IMG/VR virus record: IMGVR_UViG_3300007765_000056
Coordinates: 1 to 21,851 of that record
Length of the DNA: 21,851 nt
Strand: one strand, 5' to 3'
DNA from: a virus
The position numbers and the translations under genes were made by a program. Below, one piece after another: positions 6,269-21,851 of the stretch. Numbering within the stretch: the first letter of the stretch is position 1; every line of letters starts with the position of its first letter. Below the pieces are notes generated by a model. The model saw only the letters and a list, made by a program, of their open reading frames with translations, did no database searches and had not been told where the DNA came from.

Positions 6269-9200
6269 TTGCAAAATATTCCAGATATAGAAGTAGCAGA
6301 GTTTCTTGGCACGGACTTTCTGTCCTGTGAGATATTAGATGCTATTGCCCAAAAAGGGGATGACGTTGAAGAGTCTTCTGAACTACCGAAGTATATCACC
6401 AATTACATCGGCTCAAAGCAGAAGCTCATCGATTGGATCTGGCAGAATACGCCGGAAGACGTTAAGTCAGTCTTTGATGCATTTGGCGGGTCCAATGTTG
6501 TGGGATTCTTATATAAACGCAAAGGCCTTAAGGTCTTTACCAATGACCAATTAAAATATTCCTACCATATATCCAGAGCCATCATTGAGAACAATTCTGT
6601 TACGCTTTCTGATGATGAGATTGAAAACCTTGCTCAACCCAAATCCAATGCCGGCGATTTCATTCAACGCAATTTCAAGCACACCTTTTTTACACCTGAA
6701 GTTTTAAATATTTTAGATAGCCTGCGGGCAAACATCGACACCCTCAAAGGATACAAAAAAGACATCGCCCTTTTTGCATTGGGTAAAACCTGTATCTCCG
6801 GTAAGGGTGGTTTTGGACATTTCTCTTCTACCACCATGCATGGCAAACGCAGGTTTACCAAAAACCAGTTTATTGAACTCTATAAATCCAATTTAAAACG
6901 CATCAGCGACCTGGTCTTTGATAATGGACAGGAGAACAAAGCTTATAACGGTGAGATATTAGATATAGCCCCACAAGTAAAAGCAGACCTGGCTTATTTC
7001 GATCCTCCTTATGCCACCCATTTTTCCACCACCAATTATGAGACTGCCTACCATTTCGTGGAAGGTCTTATGACCATGTGGAAAGGCAAAGAGATTAAGG
7101 AAGATTCCAAAACAAAATCTTATCAAGTCTCATCCAAAACAGTAACTGAAAAAACAGCCAATGAGTTTTTTGAAAATTACTTAAACGCTTCCAAGCATAT
7201 CAAATACTGGATCATCTCATATCGAGATAATGCTTACCCGTCCGAGCGGAAGATAAAGACCATTATAGATGACTTGAATAAAGATTCACGGATGAAAAGT
7301 CGTGATCATCATTATTCTTTATCATCTGCACACGGAGAAAACAGCGATGCCAAGGAACATATCTTTATCTGCGGTCCAAGGGGGTTTTTGAATCAGGCTA
7401 AGGCGAACGCTGAAACGGAAGAAGAAATAATAGCCGCAAAAGGCACAAAAGACACAGAAACTGTAGAAGAAATACTAATTGAAGAAGATTTTCTTTTTGC
7501 GTTAGCAGCTCGTCGCAGTGGTTATGAGAATAAACATACGGAAGATAAAACAAGAGTCTCCGGATATATGGGCAGTAAATATTTTGTTTTGGATTGGATC
7601 TGGCGGGCTGTTCCAAAAGAGATAAGAAACAACCCAAATGGCAAGGTGTTCTTTGATGCATTCTGCGGTGGAGCCAATGTGGCTTATTTCTTCAAGCAGA
7701 AAGGATTCAAGGTAATAACCAATGATTCACTTGATTTTCCCACCCATATTGCAAAAGCCGTTATTGAAAATAGTTCCGTTACCCTGACGGATGAAGACAT
7801 AGAAATCCTGTTAAAAGAAAACAAATCAGCCGGGGATTTTGTGGTGAAAACATTCCACGGTTATTATTACACAAAACCCATATTAGAGTGGCTGGATAAC
7901 ATGTATGCCAATATCCAGAATCTAAAGGGATATAAAAAAGATTTGGCACTGTCTGCCATGGGTGCAACGGTTAAAGCCAAGGCACTTTTCGGAGAGTTTA
8001 AACGGAGTAAAAAAGGACTTAAAACATCTATTACAGAAAATAAGGCTAAAGACGATCGCTTTGGCAGATCTTCACTTGGAAACTTATCTGTCAAACAATT
8101 TGAACACACATTTAAATATTATGTAAAGAAATTCAATTCTCTGGTTTTTGATAACGGCCAGGAGAATAAAGTATACAAACAAGATACCTGGGATTTAATC
8201 CCGAAGGTAAAAGCCGACCTTGCTTATTTCGATCCGCCTTACGTAACAGAGTTTGAAGCCAACGATTATGAGAATGCCATGCATTTCGTGGAAGGCCTGA
8301 TGACTATGTGGAAGGGTAAAGAAATTCAGGATAATGTCTTCAGAAATTATAAATCAACAACGAAGTATTCCAAAAAAACATATCCAGATCAATTCAAAGA
8401 TTTAATCGGACTCTCACAAAAACAAAATAAACACCTCTTAATCTCATATCGTGACCACGCCTATCCCACCAAAAGTGAAATCAAATCATTCTTAAAAGAC
8501 AATTATCAAGAGTCGTCTGTCAAAGAGATTGAAGTAGAGTATCGCTTCGGGAAGAAAGATTCTAAAGCTGGTGGGAAGTATGCGAAGGAACTTCTATTCG
8601 TGGCATCTAAACCATTATCCAGTACCAGAAGTAACAGTCAGGAAGCGGAACGATTATGTCATACCACACTCACCTGTGATGCTCATCTAATTTCAAAAGC
8701 AAAAGAGGGTGACCCGCAGTTTACTTTTATATTGACTCATGCGGGCACCAATTCCAATGGCGATCATTTTCTTGCAAGTGAGCTCAAAACCAAGCATGAA
8801 ACCGTTGTTGAGAAGAAAATCGATTTAAAACATTCCCAGGATATTACAGACATTGTTGGTGGTGTCATCTCATCGGAATACAAGGAAGATAATAGCGGTG
8901 TAGTGGAATGTGTAGGCGAACTTTATGTACAGGATAATCCCCACGCCCAGCTTGCTTATAAACTCTTGAAAAAAGGGATTATAAAACAGGTGTCGATGGA
9001 ATGTGATTATGAGGAGGGTGAATGCTCTATTTGTAAAAAAAGGGTTAAAGCAAGATCAGATGATTGCATTCATTTAAAAAAGCATAAGGGAAGAGACTAT
9101 AAAGGCAAAAAAGTTTATGAGATTTTGCACAACATCACTTTTACCGGTCTTGGATTATTAGACAGAGCCGGTGCGGATGAACATGCAAAAATACTTGCAG

Positions 9201-9811
9201 TCGCTAACATAAATAAGGAGGACAGTCACATGTCAGAAAACAACAATCCCGATCAAAGCGGGAATAATAAGCAGACAGAAAAGGACACAGGATTGTCCGC
9301 ACTGGAAGCTAAATACAATGATCAGTCTGAAAAACTCAAAGGACTTCAAAAGGAAGCAGATCAAAAAGATGATCGCATTAAAGAGTTAGAGTCAGAACTG
9401 GAAAAAACAGCCAAGGATTTGGAAAAGGCACAGAAGCAAATCGAATCCATGGAAAAGGAAAAACAGGCAGCGAAACAAAAGGCTAAAGCTGAAAGCATCT
9501 TGAAAAAATGGGAGTCCATGGGTCGTTCATTTGAGACGGAAGAAGAAAAAGAAAAGGAATTAAAACGTCTTGCCGGTTTAAGTGAAGATGCGTTAGGTGC
9601 TATTGAAGAGACCATTGGTTCTTTTGATTCTTTAAAAAGCGAAAAAGCTGAAATAGAGAACAAGAAACAAGAAGAGAAAAAACAATCTCAAGCAAACATG
9701 CGGGCAAAAGCAAATGTAAAGCCGGAATCTGTGGATGACGTGGAAGTCACCTTAAAAGATGAATTGAAAAATGGTTTTGTAGCCGCATACAACTCAAGGA
9801 TAGGAGGATAA
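6269..9811 (+). CDS. fusion: two D12-class DNA adenine methyltransferase domains + prohead protease + scaffold
   Basis: 1180 codons in one open frame. The first methyltransferase has YIGSK (46-50), the SAM motif FDAFGG (69-74) and catalytic DPPY (245-248). The second, a diverged duplicate about 400 residues later, has YMGSK (433-437), FDAFCGG (462-468) and DPPY (655-658). Both share HFVEGLMTMWKGKEI after DPPY, so both should be able to make N6-methyladenine. Residues about 815-980 are a phage head maturation protease of the XkdF/assemblin-like fold, with LTHAG (822-826), candidate catalytic His855 (DLKHSQ) and Ser909 (QVSME), an inserted Cys/His knuckle (C919, C922, C933, H935) and the closing FTGLGLLDRAGADEHAKI. 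From Met988 the protein is a Glu/Lys-rich coiled coil typical of scaffolds. The gene lies exactly where protease and scaffold belong, before the capsid genes. The joint from methyltransferase to protease has no internal start codon that I can find. The fusion of methyltransferases to this module is unusual. Confidence 0.88.
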   Translation: MQNIPDIEVAEFLGTDFLSCEILDAIAQKGDDVEESSELPKYITNYIGSKQKLIDWIWQNTPEDVKSVFDAFGGSNVVGFLYKRKGLKVFTNDQLKYSYHISRAIIENNSVTLSDDEIENLAQPKSNAGDFIQRNFKHTFFTPEVLNILDSLRANIDTLKGYKKDIALFALGKTCISGKGGFGHFSSTTMHGKRRFTKNQFIELYKSNLKRISDLVFDNGQENKAYNGEILDIAPQVKADLAYFDPPYATHFSTTNYETAYHFVEGLMTMWKGKEIKEDSKTKSYQVSSKTVTEKTANEFFENYLNASKHIKYWIISYRDNAYPSERKIKTIIDDLNKDSRMKSRDHHYSLSSAHGENSDAKEHIFICGPRGFLNQAKANAETEEEIIAAKGTKDTETVEEILIEEDFLFALAARRSGYENKHTEDKTRVSGYMGSKYFVLDWIWRAVPKEIRNNPNGKVFFDAFCGGANVAYFFKQKGFKVITNDSLDFPTHIAKAVIENSSVTLTDEDIEILLKENKSAGDFVVKTFHGYYYTKPILEWLDNMYANIQNLKGYKKDLALSAMGATVKAKALFGEFKRSKKGLKTSITENKAKDDRFGRSSLGNLSVKQFEHTFKYYVKKFNSLVFDNGQENKVYKQDTWDLIPKVKADLAYFDPPYVTEFEANDYENAMHFVEGLMTMWKGKEIQDNVFRNYKSTTKYSKKTYPDQFKDLIGLSQKQNKHLLISYRDHAYPTKSEIKSFLKDNYQESSVKEIEVEYRFGKKDSKAGGKYAKELLFVASKPLSSTRSNSQEAERLCHTTLTCDAHLISKAKEGDPQFTFILTHAGTNSNGDHFLASELKTKHETVVEKKIDLKHSQDITDIVGGVISSEYKEDNSGVVECVGELYVQDNPHAQLAYKLLKKGIIKQVSMECDYEEGECSICKKRVKARSDDCIHLKKHKGRDYKGKKVYEILHNITFTGLGLLDRAGADEHAKILAVANINKEDSHMSENNNPDQSGNNKQTEKDTGLSALEAKYNDQSEKLKGLQKEADQKDDRIKELESELEKTAKDLEKAQKQIESMEKEKQAAKQKAKAESILKKWESMGRSFETEEEKEKELKRLAGLSEDALGAIEETIGSFDSLKSEKAEIENKKQEEKKQSQANMRAKANVKPESVDDVEVTLKDELKNGFVAAYNSRIGG
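9215..9221 (+). promoter_or_regulatory. internal Shine-Dalgarno site for the scaffold
   Basis: A perfect AAGGAGG, 8 nt before the in-frame ATG at 9230, inside the long methyltransferase-protease-scaffold gene. Its strength matches the sites before the decoration and capsid genes, which argues for independent initiation here. Confidence 0.8.
9230..9811 (+). CDS. capsid scaffolding protein from an internal in-frame start
   Basis: 193 residues, in frame with and nested in the 3' end of the long gene. The first ~25 residues are polar and disordered (rich in N, Q, S, D). A long charged coiled coil follows (about 30-95), then a helical region and a short basic stretch before the C-terminal segment ending NSRIGG. 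This is the usual build of a procapsid scaffold, whose C-terminus binds the coat protein. The arrangement copies lambda C/Nu3 and related phages, where a protease and its scaffold share a frame and the scaffold is made in excess from an internal start. The stop overlaps the Shine-Dalgarno region of the decoration gene. The coding sequence is certain; separate initiation is inferred from AAGGAGG and the known precedent. Confidence 0.75.
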   Translation: MSENNNPDQSGNNKQTEKDTGLSALEAKYNDQSEKLKGLQKEADQKDDRIKELESELEKTAKDLEKAQKQIESMEKEKQAAKQKAKAESILKKWESMGRSFETEEEKEKELKRLAGLSEDALGAIEETIGSFDSLKSEKAEIENKKQEEKKQSQANMRAKANVKPESVDDVEVTLKDELKNGFVAAYNSRIGG

Positions 9812-11339: not shown

Positions 11340-11785
11340 CCATTAGCAGTTTCATATCAGAGTTAAAACTGCAGATTGATGATACAGCGGATGAGTCGAT
11401 ACTTAACACCGAACAATATTCATCCATTGTATCTCGGTCATTGAATAAAGTGAATGCCACTTTGGGGATGAATTACGAAATCTCAAATGATGAGATTACA
11501 CCTGATTTGCTTTCAGATTCAAAGGAGTTATTAACAGTTCAGGCTTTGGTTTTTATTGCTGAAACAATGCGAGCCAAGGTAGCCAAGAACTTCTCCTTTA
11601 AAAGCGGTGATAAGACCATCGATAAAACCAAGCAGCCGTCCTTCTGGGCGGATCTGCATAAGGATTATTTATCTCGTCTTCACACCCTTACAAAGAGATT
11701 AGCTCCTCACTTGGATGATGAGTCTGGATTGCTCTCGGCAGGCAAATTCCCCATCCCGGAAGTCTATGAGGTTTCCAGTGCTTGA
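11336..11785 (+). CDS. head-tail connector/adaptor protein
   Basis: 149 residues in a 4-nt ATGA overlap with the gene before. It is largely helical, with a typical adaptor pattern: an N-terminal helix (ISSFISELKLQI), an ILNTEQYSSIVSRSLNKVN helix and a central hydrophobic helix (LLTVQALVFIAETMRAKVA). The family (gp15/gp6-like head completion proteins) stacks under the portal as a ring of twelve. The call rests on size, helicity and position between the capsid and head-closure genes; the sequence itself is weakly diagnostic. Confidence 0.62.
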   Translation: MTISSFISELKLQIDDTADESILNTEQYSSIVSRSLNKVNATLGMNYEISNDEITPDLLSDSKELLTVQALVFIAETMRAKVAKNFSFKSGDKTIDKTKQPSFWADLHKDYLSRLHTLTKRLAPHLDDESGLLSAGKFPIPEVYEVSSA

Positions 11786-12140
11786 GACGATGGATAAACA
11801 AATGATGAAATCGGATGTGGAAAATGTCATCCTTTCCTTCGGTAAATCCATGACGGTATATCGGAGTGCTAAAGTCAATACCGGGAGTTTCGCAGGGGGA
11901 CACAAAACAAATGAAATCACCATTGGCGAATATCCCATTGAACAGAAACTGCTCTCACCCAAATCTTTAACAGAAATCGGGGCTGATCTGGTTATTACTT
12001 GCGGAAGTGAAACGGATATTTCCGAAGGTGATCGGGTTGCGATTGAAAATCAAAATTACATCGTAAGTCATATCAATCCAGAGAACGCTTTTGGGGTTGT
12101 TACGCACTTGGAAGTGAATCTTGAAAAGAGTGAAAAATAA
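11766..12140 (+). CDS. head closure/stopper-type connector protein
   Basis: 124 residues from ATG 11766 (GGAAG upstream, 3-nt spacing). ATG 11790, giving 116 residues and starting just after the upstream stop, is an equally reasonable alternative. The protein looks beta-rich, with VILSFGKSMTVYRS at the start and a turn-rich GSETDISEGDRVAIENQNYIV motif typical of gp16/XkdH-like stoppers that close the head and join the tail. It lies between the adaptor and the gp10-like gene, as expected. The following 100 nt hold the dispersed repeat and no gene. Confidence 0.65.
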   Translation: MRFPVLETMDKQMMKSDVENVILSFGKSMTVYRSAKVNTGSFAGGHKTNEITIGEYPIEQKLLSPKSLTEIGADLVITCGSETDISEGDRVAIENQNYIVSHINPENAFGVVTHLEVNLEKSEK

Positions 12141-12148
12141 CGAAATAA

Positions 12149-12238
12149 CCACGGATTACACGGATGAACACGGATAAAAGAATTATAATTAAAGTAAAGT
12201 TTTTCTCTGTCTCTCTCTGTGGGCTCTGCGGCTAATAA
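12149..12238 (+). repeat. dispersed CACGGAT-type repeat, copy A
   Basis: It starts with three CACGGAT units spaced 2 and 3 nt apart, then an AT-rich spacer (GTAAAGTTTTTCTCTGT) and a GGGCTCTGCGGCTAATAA end. It matches copy B (21546-21625) at most positions; copy A has an extra 10 nt (CTCTCTCTGT). It ends 1 nt before the start codon of the gp10-like gene, so it now forms that gene's leader. Confidence 0.85.
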
Positions 12239-12239
12239 A

Positions 12240-12719
12240 ATGATTGATGTAAAAATAGACTTCAAAGCGATTGAAAAAGCCGAAAAAGTGGTGTCGGGCA
12301 TTTCTGAACTCATTTTACAAGAGATACAGGAAGGAATAATGGAACTTTCCACTTTGGTAGACAGGCACGCAAAAGAAAAGATCAAAGAACATGGTGCTAT
12401 CGATCAGGGGCAGTTGTGGAATTCCATTACGATTGTGCCCATAAGTAGAACAGAAGTGATTGTGGGTACGAATGTGTCCTATGCTGCTGCTGTGGAGTTT
12501 GGGACAAAAGGACATTGGCTGCATATTGAATCCACTCCCGGATTTAGGGGGTGGATGACCCGTCATGGGATTGATAAAAATAACACCATGGAATTTTTCT
12601 ACGTTGAACCCAAACCGAGACCCTACATGGAACCGGCTTTTATTCATGGGAAATCAATGGTGCCATCGGTGATTGAAGAAAGGGTTAAGAACGTCATGAA
12701 TAGGTTAAAATCATTATGA
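12240..12719 (+). CDS. HK97 gp10-like tail completion/minor tail protein
   Basis: 159 residues from ATG 12240. A GTG at 12219 is in frame but lies inside the repeat and would add only seven residues of repeat-derived sequence. The family signature is clear: VGTNVSYAAAVEFGTKGH in the middle and PKPRPYMEPAF near the end. These proteins help close the head-tail joint or the top of the tail. There is no recognisable Shine-Dalgarno site before the start, since the repeat abuts it, which is unusual among these genes. The stop overlaps the next gene's ATGA. Confidence 0.82.
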   Translation: MIDVKIDFKAIEKAEKVVSGISELILQEIQEGIMELSTLVDRHAKEKIKEHGAIDQGQLWNSITIVPISRTEVIVGTNVSYAAAVEFGTKGHWLHIESTPGFRGWMTRHGIDKNNTMEFFYVEPKPRPYMEPAFIHGKSMVPSVIEERVKNVMNRLKSL

Positions 12720-14833: not shown

Positions 14834-14845
14834 GAGGAAAATTAA

Positions 14846-15578: not shown

Positions 15579-15590
15579 AAGGAGCAGATT

Positions 15591-15929: not shown

Positions 15930-16114
15930 AGGAAGTTGACAAAACTTCCTATCTGCAAATGAGAGCGGTGATCTGTATGAAATTTCCAGCTTATACTTTT
16001 GAAACAGTGGATAGTCTACCCTTATCTCGCGTGATGGAAATCTATGCCTCCTGCCAGTGGTTAAGTGATCAGGAAAAGAAAGCAATTGATGAAGCAAAAA
16101 GGAAAATGAGATAA
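15591..16114 (+). CDS. tail assembly chaperone, long (gpGT-like) -1 frameshift product
   Basis: Reading in frame to GGA (15918-15920) and AAC (15921-15923), then slipping back one base, the ribosome continues with CTC GTA AAG and reads 63 codons to TAA 16112-16114, for about 174 residues. The -1 extension contains KFPAYTFETVD and a helix VMEIYASCQWLSDQEKKAI, like the T domains of other gpGT proteins. The extension has no good start of its own: the ATG at 15977 lacks a Shine-Dalgarno site. The extension's stop overlaps the tape-measure ATG by one base. Joined coordinates are 15591-15923 and 15923-16114. Confidence 0.8.
15917..15950 (+). promoter_or_regulatory. programmed -1 ribosomal frameshift signal
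   Basis: The slippery heptamer G GGA AAC is at 15917-15923 in the correct phase. After a 6-nt spacer comes a perfect 8-bp hairpin, AGGAAGTT (15930-15937) with AACTTCCT (15943-15950) and a 5-nt loop. The zero-frame stop TAA lies in the spacer. Heptamer, spacing and stem are the textbook arrangement, and GGGAAAN is the type used by lambda G/GT. Confidence 0.88.
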
Positions 16115-18963: not shown

Positions 18964-19610
18964 GTCTTTTTACAGAACTAAAACCGATTCAGAGCAACAA
19001 CACATATATGGAAGTGATGCTCGGTGGCGTAATACTTCCTGTTCCACCCAAGAGTATGAAAATTAAGCAATCCATGAAGGTGGATGAGATTGAGATTCCG
19101 GGAAGAAGCGGAAAAGTCAAACAACCCATCGGCTATGAAGATAGTGAAATCACACTCTCATTAGAAATCCCTGCCACCTATGAAAACGGCAGAATCAAAG
19201 AAAAAGCACCAGACAGATTTAAAGCGATTCAGAGTTTATTCAGGGGCAGTAAAGATACAAAACCACAGGCGGTTGATATTGCATCAACTCTCACTGAAAC
19301 GATCGGAATCAAGCAGGTCTTAATCAAATCTGTGGAAATATCCGATAGCACCATGGATCTGGTGTCTGTGAATTTGACTCTGTCCGAATATGAATCCATT
19401 GAAGTTCAACTGACACAACAGGCTCAAGAATTAGAAGCAAAGGCAGAAGCGGAGGCAAAAGGCGAAGAAGCGATTGCCGGGGATGAAAATTTAAGTGAAG
19501 CCTTGGGAAATCCAGATAATGATTATCTGTCAGAGCAATATGAAGCAGGGAAGTCTGATGCAATGGGTGGTGAGTTTGATGGCGATTCTCCAGTTGAGGA
19601 CACAGAATAA
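18960..19610 (+). CDS. tail/baseplate adaptor protein (XkdP-like position, no LysM)
   Basis: 216 residues overlapping the tape measure by 4 nt. Residues 1-145 are beta-rich with the pattern VEVMLGG-type start, LPVPPKSMKIKQSMKVDEIEIPGRSGKVKQ, as in the N-terminal domain of XkdP and related proteins that bind the tube end. The usual C-terminal LysM module is missing. Instead there is an acidic, disordered tail of about 65 residues rich in Glu, Ala, Asp and Gly. It lies directly before the hub gene, as XkdP does before XkdQ. Confidence 0.68.
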   Translation: MSLFTELKPIQSNNTYMEVMLGGVILPVPPKSMKIKQSMKVDEIEIPGRSGKVKQPIGYEDSEITLSLEIPATYENGRIKEKAPDRFKAIQSLFRGSKDTKPQAVDIASTLTETIGIKQVLIKSVEISDSTMDLVSVNLTLSEYESIEVQLTQQAQELEAKAEAEAKGEEAIAGDENLSEALGNPDNDYLSEQYEAGKSDAMGGEFDGDSPVEDTE

Positions 19611-20341: not shown

Positions 20342-20901
20342 TTGAAGCATATCTAAAAAAGATTATCGAACGGATTAAGCCTGATATTGGTTTGTATGTA
20401 AAACAGCCGATTAAGGGGAAAGTGGTGGCGGTTCAGCCGGATACATACACCTGCGATGTGCAGCCTGAAGACGAGACTCATCCGGTCATTCCATTGGTAG
20501 AGATTTTATCAGTCTGGGCAACCCCAATCACTCGTCTTTTGGCATTACCAACTGTTGACAGCATTGTGATTGTGGGATTTTTAGATGGAGATAATGCAAA
20601 GCCGTTTATTCAAGGCTTTATCACAGAGACAGGGTTTTCCAATCAATTCTTAATCGAAAGTGAAACTTCCAGAATCTTTCTGGATGAAGATGGAACGGTC
20701 ACAATAGAGAGTGACACAAAAGTCAATGTCAATGCACCAGAGATTAATTTAGGCGAGTCCGCATCTGAAGCAGTCATAAAAGGTAATACGTTTCAATCAC
20801 TTTTTAATGCTCATACACATGGGACAGGGGTTGGTCCATCCACACCTCCGATTCAACTTTTAACAGGAGCAGAACTTTCTGGAGTTGTCAAATGCGTATA
20901 A
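20338..20901 (+). CDS. baseplate spike protein (gpV/gp5 OB-fold type)
   Basis: 187 residues in a 4-nt overlap with the hub gene. An OB-fold N-terminal part (GKVVAVQPDTYTCDVQPED, then VDSIVIVGFLDGDNAKPFIQGFI) is followed by a repetitive beta-helix (SRIFLDEDGTVTIESDTKVNVNAPEIN), the membrane-piercing needle. Near the end, HTH (His159-His161) in FNAHTHGTG resembles the HxH iron-binding tip motif known from P2 gpV-type spikes. As a trimer it would sit under the hub. Confidence 0.82.
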   Translation: MIEAYLKKIIERIKPDIGLYVKQPIKGKVVAVQPDTYTCDVQPEDETHPVIPLVEILSVWATPITRLLALPTVDSIVIVGFLDGDNAKPFIQGFITETGFSNQFLIESETSRIFLDEDGTVTIESDTKVNVNAPEINLGESASEAVIKGNTFQSLFNAHTHGTGVGPSTPPIQLLTGAELSGVVKCV

Positions 20902-21338
20902 GCCCCCATTTTCAATTAAAAGAGTTTACAAAGTCAAAAACGGCTGATGAGAAGAAGATCAATAACACCCCATCAGTGGAGCAGATAAAAAATATTACAG
21001 CACTTTGTAAAATTGTATTAGAACCTGTCAGAAAGAACTTTGGAATGCCTATTTATATCACAAGCGGATACAGGTCAAAAGAATTGAATAAGGCTATTGG
21101 CGGTTCACTTTACTCTCAACACATGAAAGGGGAAGCAGCAGACTTTGTGGTGAAAGACATTCCTACGCCCAAGGTGTTCGATTATATCGTTTCTCATAGC
21201 ATCTTATTCGACCAATGTATTTACGAGATAAAAGGAAAGTCAGAGTGGATTCATATTTCTCATAAAAGAAACAGAAAAGAAAAATTAAAAGCAAGTCTGG
21301 ATGAAACAGGAAGGATGGTTTATCATGCCGTTAAATAA
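20892..21338 (+). CDS. M15-family peptidoglycan peptidase (D-Ala-D-Ala type)
   Basis: 148 residues with GGAG 7 nt before the ATG. Zinc-peptidase signature of the M15 type: TSGYRS (57-62), SQHMKGEAADF with His77 and Asp84, and WIHIS with His121. It cleaves peptide crosslinks in peptidoglycan. No signal peptide or membrane segment is present. Its place between spike and other baseplate genes suggests either a tail lysin for entry or the endolysin. The domain fills the whole protein, with no separate wall-binding module. It points to a bacterial host with a peptidoglycan wall. Confidence 0.88.
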   Translation: MRISPHFQLKEFTKSKTADEKKINNTPSVEQIKNITALCKIVLEPVRKNFGMPIYITSGYRSKELNKAIGGSLYSQHMKGEAADFVVKDIPTPKVFDYIVSHSILFDQCIYEIKGKSEWIHISHKRNRKEKLKASLDETGRMVYHAVK

Positions 21339-21534
21339 ATCAAGCTTGGAGTCAGCTATAAAAACTGCTCTTACTTCATCTGAAGATAAAACGATGGATG
21401 AGACGGCAGAACAAATCGCCACAGCTATTGATGAATACATTAAATCAATGACAATAACGGTAGCAGGTTTGGCCACAGCTGGGACGGCAGTGGCACAAGC
21501 TCAAACAGCACCTGTTGTGGCAACCATAACATAA
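21325..21534 (+). CDS. small tail-associated protein of unknown function
   Basis: 69 residues from ATG 21325, which has GGAAGGA upstream and overlaps the peptidase stop. The N-terminal half is helical and acidic (SSLESAIKTALTSSEDKTMDETAEQIATAIDEYIKS). The C-terminal half is small-residue-rich (Ala, Thr, Gly, Val). Small genes of this build occur near baseplate genes of Mu-like phages; I cannot name a function. Confidence 0.6.
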   Translation: MPLNKSSLESAIKTALTSSEDKTMDETAEQIATAIDEYIKSMTITVAGLATAGTAVAQAQTAPVVATIT

Positions 21535-21545
21535 ATACTAATAGG

Positions 21546-21625
21546 CCACGGATTACACGGATGAACACAGATAAAAGAATTGTAATAAAAGTAAAGTTTT
21601 TCTCTGTGGACTCTGTGGCTAATAA
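21546..21625 (+). repeat. dispersed CACGGAT-type repeat, copy B
   Basis: 80 nt, the second copy of the element at 12149-12238, in the same orientation. It keeps two perfect CACGGAT units and one changed to CACAGAT, the AT-rich spacer, and ends GGACTCTGTGGCTAATAA. It fills the gap between two genes and does not interrupt either. Unlike copy A, a good AAGGA site follows it before the next ATG. Confidence 0.85.
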
Positions 21626-21642: not shown

Positions 21643-21851
21643 ATGGAAGATTGGTTTTCAATTTATAACGGATTGTATCTCATTGTTCTCATTTTAGGAG
21701 CAGTGGCCACACTCGTCACAGCAAAATACAGAAAGGTTGTAAAAGAACTTTCTGAATTGACGGTTGCCTTAAAAAACGGATATAGTGACAAGAAACTGAC
21801 CAAGGCAGAAAAAGATGAAATCATGAAAGAAGCATTGGATGTGGTTAAATC
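21643..21851 (+). CDS. small membrane protein, 3' end outside window
   Basis: 69 codons visible and open to the window edge. AAGGA precedes ATG 21643. Residues about 8-27 form a membrane segment (GLYLIVLILGAVATLVTAKY), followed by a charged helix and KLTKAEKDEIMKEAL. It could be a holin-type or other small phage membrane protein; the truncation prevents a call. Confidence 0.65.
   Translation, partial: MEDWFSIYNGLYLIVLILGAVATLVTAKYRKVVKELSELTVALKNGYSDKKLTKAEKDEIMKEALDVVK

Follow-up and report, generated by a model that had tools for sequence, protein, structure and literature searches.

Two intergenic repeats in a tailed-phage structural operon as probable miniature copies of a GxxExxY-nuclease element

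The window, that is, the whole stretch of 21,851 bases analysed here as a fragment of a virus record, comprises a tailed-phage structural operon in which one element of 74-84 bp occurs twice, at positions 12149-12232 (84 nt) and 21546-21619 (74 nt). With a probability of roughly two in three, both are host-derived, gene-less miniature copies of a mobile-type element built around a GxxExxY nuclease, REPIN-like in habit but with an enzyme unrelated to RAYT. The anatomy of the copies, the bracketing of GxxExxY genes by inverted arrays, the intergenic spread, the presence or absence at orthologous sites and the match between gene lineage and repeat unit were each computed, and from these we infer movement by the nuclease. 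The nuclease link formed no part of the sequence-only reading of this DNA.

Anatomy and neighbours of the two phage copies

The operon encodes a minor capsid protein, an HK97-fold major capsid protein, a tape measure protein, a head-tail adaptor, a Neck1-type protein, a baseplate protein and an endolysin. Copy 1 (+ strand) is located between the head-tail adaptor and Neck1-type genes, with ORF 11715-12140 (PHROG head-tail adaptor, E 5.8e-6) on its left and an ORF with its ATG at 12240 (tail completion/Neck1, E 6.1e-16) on its right. Copy 2 (+ strand) is found 3' of the endolysin-like gene and of the small ORF 21301-21534 that follows it, and precedes an ORF beginning at 21643. Alignment and ORF positions bore out the sequence-only reading in placing the copies at both positions, in the same orientation and only between genes, and in giving them a common, nearly identical AT-rich spacer (12176-12204 in copy 1). 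The left side of each copy consists of three CACGGAT-type units spaced 9 and 10 nt, on the + strand at 12150-12175 (CACGGAT TA CACGGAT GAA CACGGAT) and 21547-21572 (CACGGAT TA CACGGAT GAA CACAGAT). The CACGGAT triplet ascribed to both copies thus stands for copy 1, while the third unit of copy 2 differs. The right side comprises inverted CACAGAG-type units on the - strand, three in copy 1 (12205-12232; CTCTGTCTCT CTCTGTGGG CTCTGCGGC in direct reading) and two in copy 2 (21602-21619; CTCTGTGGA CTCTGTGGC in direct reading), copy 1 having one right-hand unit more. The 5' parts (12149-12210 and 21546-21607) share 95 % identity and the 3' parts (12209-12238 and 21596-21625) 87 %. The three-unit pattern CACGGATN{2,4}CACGGATN{2,4}CACRGAT matches the window exactly twice, at the two copies. 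No GxxExxY gene occurs among the proteins scanned in the window. Rfam covariance models gave no match at the copies and two weak ones elsewhere in the window, far below the gathering score. As a separate observation, the long ORF 6269-9811 encodes two internally repeated adenine-methyltransferase-like halves and a C-terminal part with coiled-coil-like sequence, and includes 191-nt repeats at 6911 and 8141 with 75 % identity.

GxxExxY genes are bracketed by inverted arrays

In the full-length element, a single gene is enclosed by two inverted arrays whose units measure ~9-10 nt; the gene product is a GxxExxY protein of ~125 residues (TIGR04256/PF13366) belonging to the PD-(D/E)XK nuclease superfamily. 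Such proteins are encoded in 6/7 of the genomes behind the contigs that carry the strict repeat pattern, and the inverted arrays often start no more than a few dozen bases away from the gene. For bracketing, the flanks of each gene (200 nt per side) were aligned, the right one as its reverse complement, and a score of at least 16 was taken as the threshold. The main set was drawn from these seven genomes plus a further sixty; 73 of 98 distinct rows were used, with fragments left out, and 72 genes had enough flank. The threshold was reached by 48/72 GxxExxY genes, compared to 2/36 other ORFs of the same loci (Fisher 4e-10) and 66/720 mismatched flank pairs, while 43 genes, one control ORF and 17 mismatched pairs of the same sets scored at least 20. 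At the threshold of 16, the Planctomycetota set (27 of 82 rows, those with a returned locus, excluding fragments) gave 21/27 genes versus 1/56 ORFs and 47/540 mismatched pairs. Within the genus Bacteroides, 24/26 genes were bracketed; here 26 of 31 rows were added, the rest being already counted (one), fragments or interrupted by a stop, plus L246, a viral contig described below. Scores below 16 were obtained for 24/72 genes in the main set and 6/27 in the Planctomycetota. Flanks compared in direct orientation also scored at least 16 for 32/72 genes, because whole gene-less copies often flank the gene on both sides, as REPINs do beside RAYT genes. Arms like those of the window flank GxxExxY genes in two loci, L199 (GGCACGGATTACACGGATTCCACGG) and L200.

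All 20 bracketed proteins scanned match the PF13366 profile, and E25, D65, E75, K77 and Q89 (E, D, ExK, Q) are invariant in 20/20 aligned GxxExxY proteins, which are the residues that would be expected of an active PD-(D/E)XK nuclease. A search for a solved structure related by sequence to the GxxExxY protein found none, and a single-sequence structure model of the Ignavibacteria protein at L008 4564-4929 was of low quality (mean pLDDT 36), and no fold search was based on it. GxxExxY genes are present in 29/60 Bacteroidales and 27/59 Planctomycetota genomes. One small genome, the Stahlbacteria MAG G001, includes nine GxxExxY matches, most of them partial, as expected of decaying copies. In a Cloacimonadota genome, several gene-less CACTAAG/CACAAAG elements occur in a row around one GxxExxY gene (L061, 1254-2202).

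Unit sequence follows gene lineage

The units differ between genes around a loose common frame, C[A/G]C..A[G/T], outside which some of them fall; CACAGAG, CACGGAT, CACAAAG, CACTAAG, CACGAAT, CACATAG and CGCAAAG were seen, among others. Within one element, the left and right arms have similar units. Among 2,482 between-genome pairs drawn from 72 genes, arm similarity correlates with the identity of the proteins (r 0.49), a value reached in 0 of 1000 permutations; 95 of 100 entries were scored for this test and the 72 reaching 16 were entered. The radA locus of Bacteroides provides an example, in that both arms have CACAGAT units where the gene is ~75 % identical to the B. fragilis gene and CACAGAG units where identity is ~55 %, while one element at this locus (L156) is without clear arms. 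The CACATAG and CACGAAT patterns are concentrated in a few of sixty Bacteroidales genomes. Two of these, G054 (89 CACGAAT sites) and G050 (18 CACATAG sites), encode GxxExxY genes with such arms, and in G036 (32 CACGAAT sites) the two GxxExxY genes read have other arms.

Spread through bacterial chromosomes

The proposal that the repeat is of a dispersed chromosomal type is supported by the occurrence of the strict pattern in seven genome contigs of different lineages (Stahlbacteria, Opitutaceae, Ignavibacteria, Verrucomicrobia, Phycisphaerae, Bacteroides fragilis and Cloacimonadota) and by copy numbers in Bacteroides. The two-unit pattern CACGGATN{2,4}CACGGAT is found between 1 and 47 times in each of these seven genomes and never in reverse, while counts of a looser two-unit pattern reach 164 in one Bacteroides genome, against 0 for the reversed pattern there. 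In 1.59 Mb of B. fragilis, 130 arrays could be distinguished versus two in the reversed control, with unit spacing peaking at 9 and 10 nt (112 and 97). These include 44 gene-less inverted pairs in one arrangement and 0 in the opposite one; 0/44 overlap coding sequence, although 87 % of the DNA is coding. At the radA locus, the gene-bearing B. fragilis element of 457 bp is present whole in 10/60 Bacteroides genomes and most others match its flanks only. Twenty loci lacking the whole element were examined, and both flanks are present in 17 of them. In genomes without it, the alignments cover query positions 1-445 and 903-1401, the gap separating the two can be as short as 1-16 nt, and at least one locus (L158) retains an array remnant.

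Across sixty Bacteroides genomes, the median count of the two-unit pattern was 16 where a GxxExxY gene is present (23 genomes) and 1 where it is absent (37 genomes; Mann-Whitney p 0.001). The exceptions, 6/37 gene-less genomes with at least ten sites, imply that copies outlive the gene or that something else moves them. They are compatible with an order of events in which the arrays came first, moved by another enzyme (RAYT/IS200-type) or by host recombination or replication slippage, with the GxxExxY genes as lodged cargo. Tandem arrays without any gene point the same way: some array-rich genomes hold tandem satellites rather than dispersed copies, as in G063, where arrays occur with no GxxExxY match and contigs C128 and C133 are tandem satellites of CACGAAT and CACATAG units. 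However, the Y1 transposase family PF01797 is present in only 12/60 genomes, and none was found in B. fragilis (G006; 152 sites), G243 (108 sites), G229 (67) or G225 (54), all of them rich in the repeat, so that a Y1 transposase is not needed. Furthermore, unit sequence follows GxxExxY lineage, a match that would not be required of cargo. Cargo status for the gene is thus considered unlikely, though it is the strongest of the alternatives.

Comparison with known systems and proposed mechanism

The closest parallel to the GxxExxY-array element is REPIN-RAYT. In PMC3116915, this system is described as short intergenic repeats that occur in numerous copies per genome as inverted doublets around a spacer, with matching repeats flanking a dedicated nuclease-type gene and several gene lineages each having their own repeat; PMC3733652 gives the tag rule for REPs, GTAG or CGTC at one end of a short palindrome. 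The GxxExxY repeats are likewise extragenic inverted doublets present many times per genome. The enzymes differ, however, that of the GxxExxY element belonging to a PD-(D/E)XK family (PF13366) while RAYT is a Y1 HUH transposase. The arms also differ, being iterated 9-10 nt units here rather than tagged palindromes, and GTAG and CGTC are absent from either strand of both window copies. Moreover, the repeats of the GxxExxY element are spread over other phyla. Like MITEs, the window element is short and gene-less, with terminal inverted arms matching those of a longer gene-bearing element; unlike them, the GxxExxY element is without a DDE transposase. Empty sites were observed at the radA locus and reciprocally between phages, and no target-site duplication was seen by eye. 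The gene in the full element belongs to TIGR04256/PF13366 and the window copies are without it, while the bracketing arrays are, as far as the present data show, no part of the family definition. PD-(D/E)XK homing endonucleases are small free-standing or mobile nuclease genes that use one long target site; in contrast, the insertion sites of the GxxExxY element differ from one another and the repeats lie in its own ends.

A mechanism can be proposed in which the nuclease would recognise the unit array of its own element, perhaps as an extruded hairpin or cruciform, and would cut at the array or at the hairpin formed by the inverted arms. Repair or copying of the hairpin-ended DNA could then place a copy in another intergenic gap. 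The gene-less form, which retains only the two arrays and a short spacer, is dispersed between the genes of host chromosomes and might be moved in trans by the nuclease of the element. A host chromosome is the most likely source of the phage copies, acquired during replication or residence in the host; a copy would afterwards have taken a second site within this phage lineage.

In the literature searched, the scope of which excludes subscription journals and preprints, no report of an association between the repeat and GxxExxY and no match to the two unit strings was found; the available portions of the literature naming GxxExxY mention the family in passing only. The nuclease-linked hairpin repeat has the look of a miniature mobile DNA of a kind not described before. 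The repeat is among the commonest unexplained interspersed repeats of several phyla and gains a candidate enzyme, while the GxxExxY protein gains a testable substrate. If the nuclease moves the repeats, the REPIN-RAYT way of life would have been invented twice, independently, and the lineages with their private units would supply naturally matched pairs of enzyme and site. That such repeats cross into phages is shown by the copies in the window.

Occupied and empty sites among related phages

The strict two-ended pattern was found in four viral stretches, all of them near-identical relatives of the window phage, and the near-identical contigs covering each site are occupied in 2/2 cases for site 1 and 2/2 for site 2. 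The phage represented by L015/L018, with 70-75 % identity to the window, carries three-unit half arrays of CACAAAA type at both sites, without a right arm. Two further intergenic sites, both empty in the window, are occupied in this phage: the gap corresponding to 14834-14845 holds a half array of three CACGAAT units, and a CACAAAA-type three-unit half array lies just 5' of the tape-measure start codon, corresponding to 16105-16114. A more distant phage (L021) contains a full CACAGAG element at another place. At site 1 of the distant relatives, the two genes are only a few nt apart and the site is unoccupied in 8/8 loci. The suggested mobility of the repeat into phages gains support from these unoccupied loci, the different-unit arrays of L015/L018 and the reciprocal empty sites. 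The different units and empty sites among the phage relatives further imply that arrays enter this phage lineage repeatedly. Fixation at both sites in all relatives, named in the sequence-only reading as the sign of a phage-specific signal, does not hold as worded, since occupation is seen in near-identical contigs, the next relative has another unit and no right arm, and distant ones are empty at site 1.

Selection for a phage regulatory signal, with an RNA hairpin acting as terminator, processing or attenuation site at two operon boundaries, would account for the common orientation of the copies and for the occupation of sites 1 and 2 in a phage of 70-75 % identity. As RNA, the + strand of the copies also folds better than shuffled sequence (z -2.1 and -3.0), which the - strand does not; as single-stranded DNA, neither strand of either copy gave a significant fold. 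Terminator scans, however, revealed no + strand terminator (a G+C-rich hairpin followed by a T run) at either copy, and site 1 is vacant in the distant phages. A purely RNA role is made less likely by the half arrays, which in the absence of a right arm cannot form a hairpin, and by the lack of strand bias in B. fragilis, where G:U bias was independent of the direction of transcription (12 vs 14 in ++ contexts; 5 vs 8 in -- contexts). Such a signal is therefore regarded as improbable, more so than cargo status for the nuclease gene.

Returning to the nuclease-based reading, the occupation of sites 1 and 2 in both the window and L015/L018 may reflect either shared descent with rewritten units or independent filling, as few gaps tolerate insertion. 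A broader interpretation, offered tentatively and with somewhat less than even odds, is that GxxExxY nucleases and inverted unit arrays constitute a mobile DNA class of their own. The PD-(D/E)XK protein would be the sole enzyme, with each lineage reading its own 7-10 nt unit. The units of an element would change together and lineages would drift to private addresses. Miniature copies would spread both within chromosomes and to phages. On this view, one old insertion with rewritten units would underlie sites 1 and 2 in the window and its relative.

Beyond these relatives, a DNA search with the element gave no match in the phage collection, which also yielded no GxxExxY protein, and the element is nearly absent from plasmids. 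The IMG/VR viral contig L246 includes a whole GxxExxY element with its own inverted ends. A general enrichment of the arrays in viruses was considered and rejected, as 71/152 of the matches listed fall in long ORFs (control, 38/80); most single arrays in viral contigs may thus be coding or low-complexity sequence, and an inverted partner is present in only 13/120 viral loci among the matches listed. Chance or low-complexity sequence as the origin of the copies can practically be discarded: although the three-unit CACAGAG pattern occurs in at least 120 stretches of viral contigs versus 79 when reversed, the three-unit pattern of the window is found in 0 of 100 dinucleotide shuffles of it, which already refutes chance there, reversed-pattern control arrays number 0 in 153 kb of phage loci, and an inverted partner follows 20/152 viral arrays versus 1/80 controls among the matches listed.

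A comparison of the major capsid protein with 124 genomes from the phylum of the Cloacimonadota genome gave one weak match (25 % identity, E 1.2e-4), so that no host was assigned. Two further observations concern the near-identical phages. A 48-bp insertion polymorphism occurs at 15585-15590, between the ribosome site and the start codon of ORF 15591, with the hairpin-forming insert present in L013 and L002 but not in the window or L014; it may be another small mobile repeat. Finally, phage contigs that are otherwise ~99 % identical are interrupted by patches of high divergence (2324-2398, 8794-8896, 19110-19424 and 20466-20640), a pattern such as recombination leaves.
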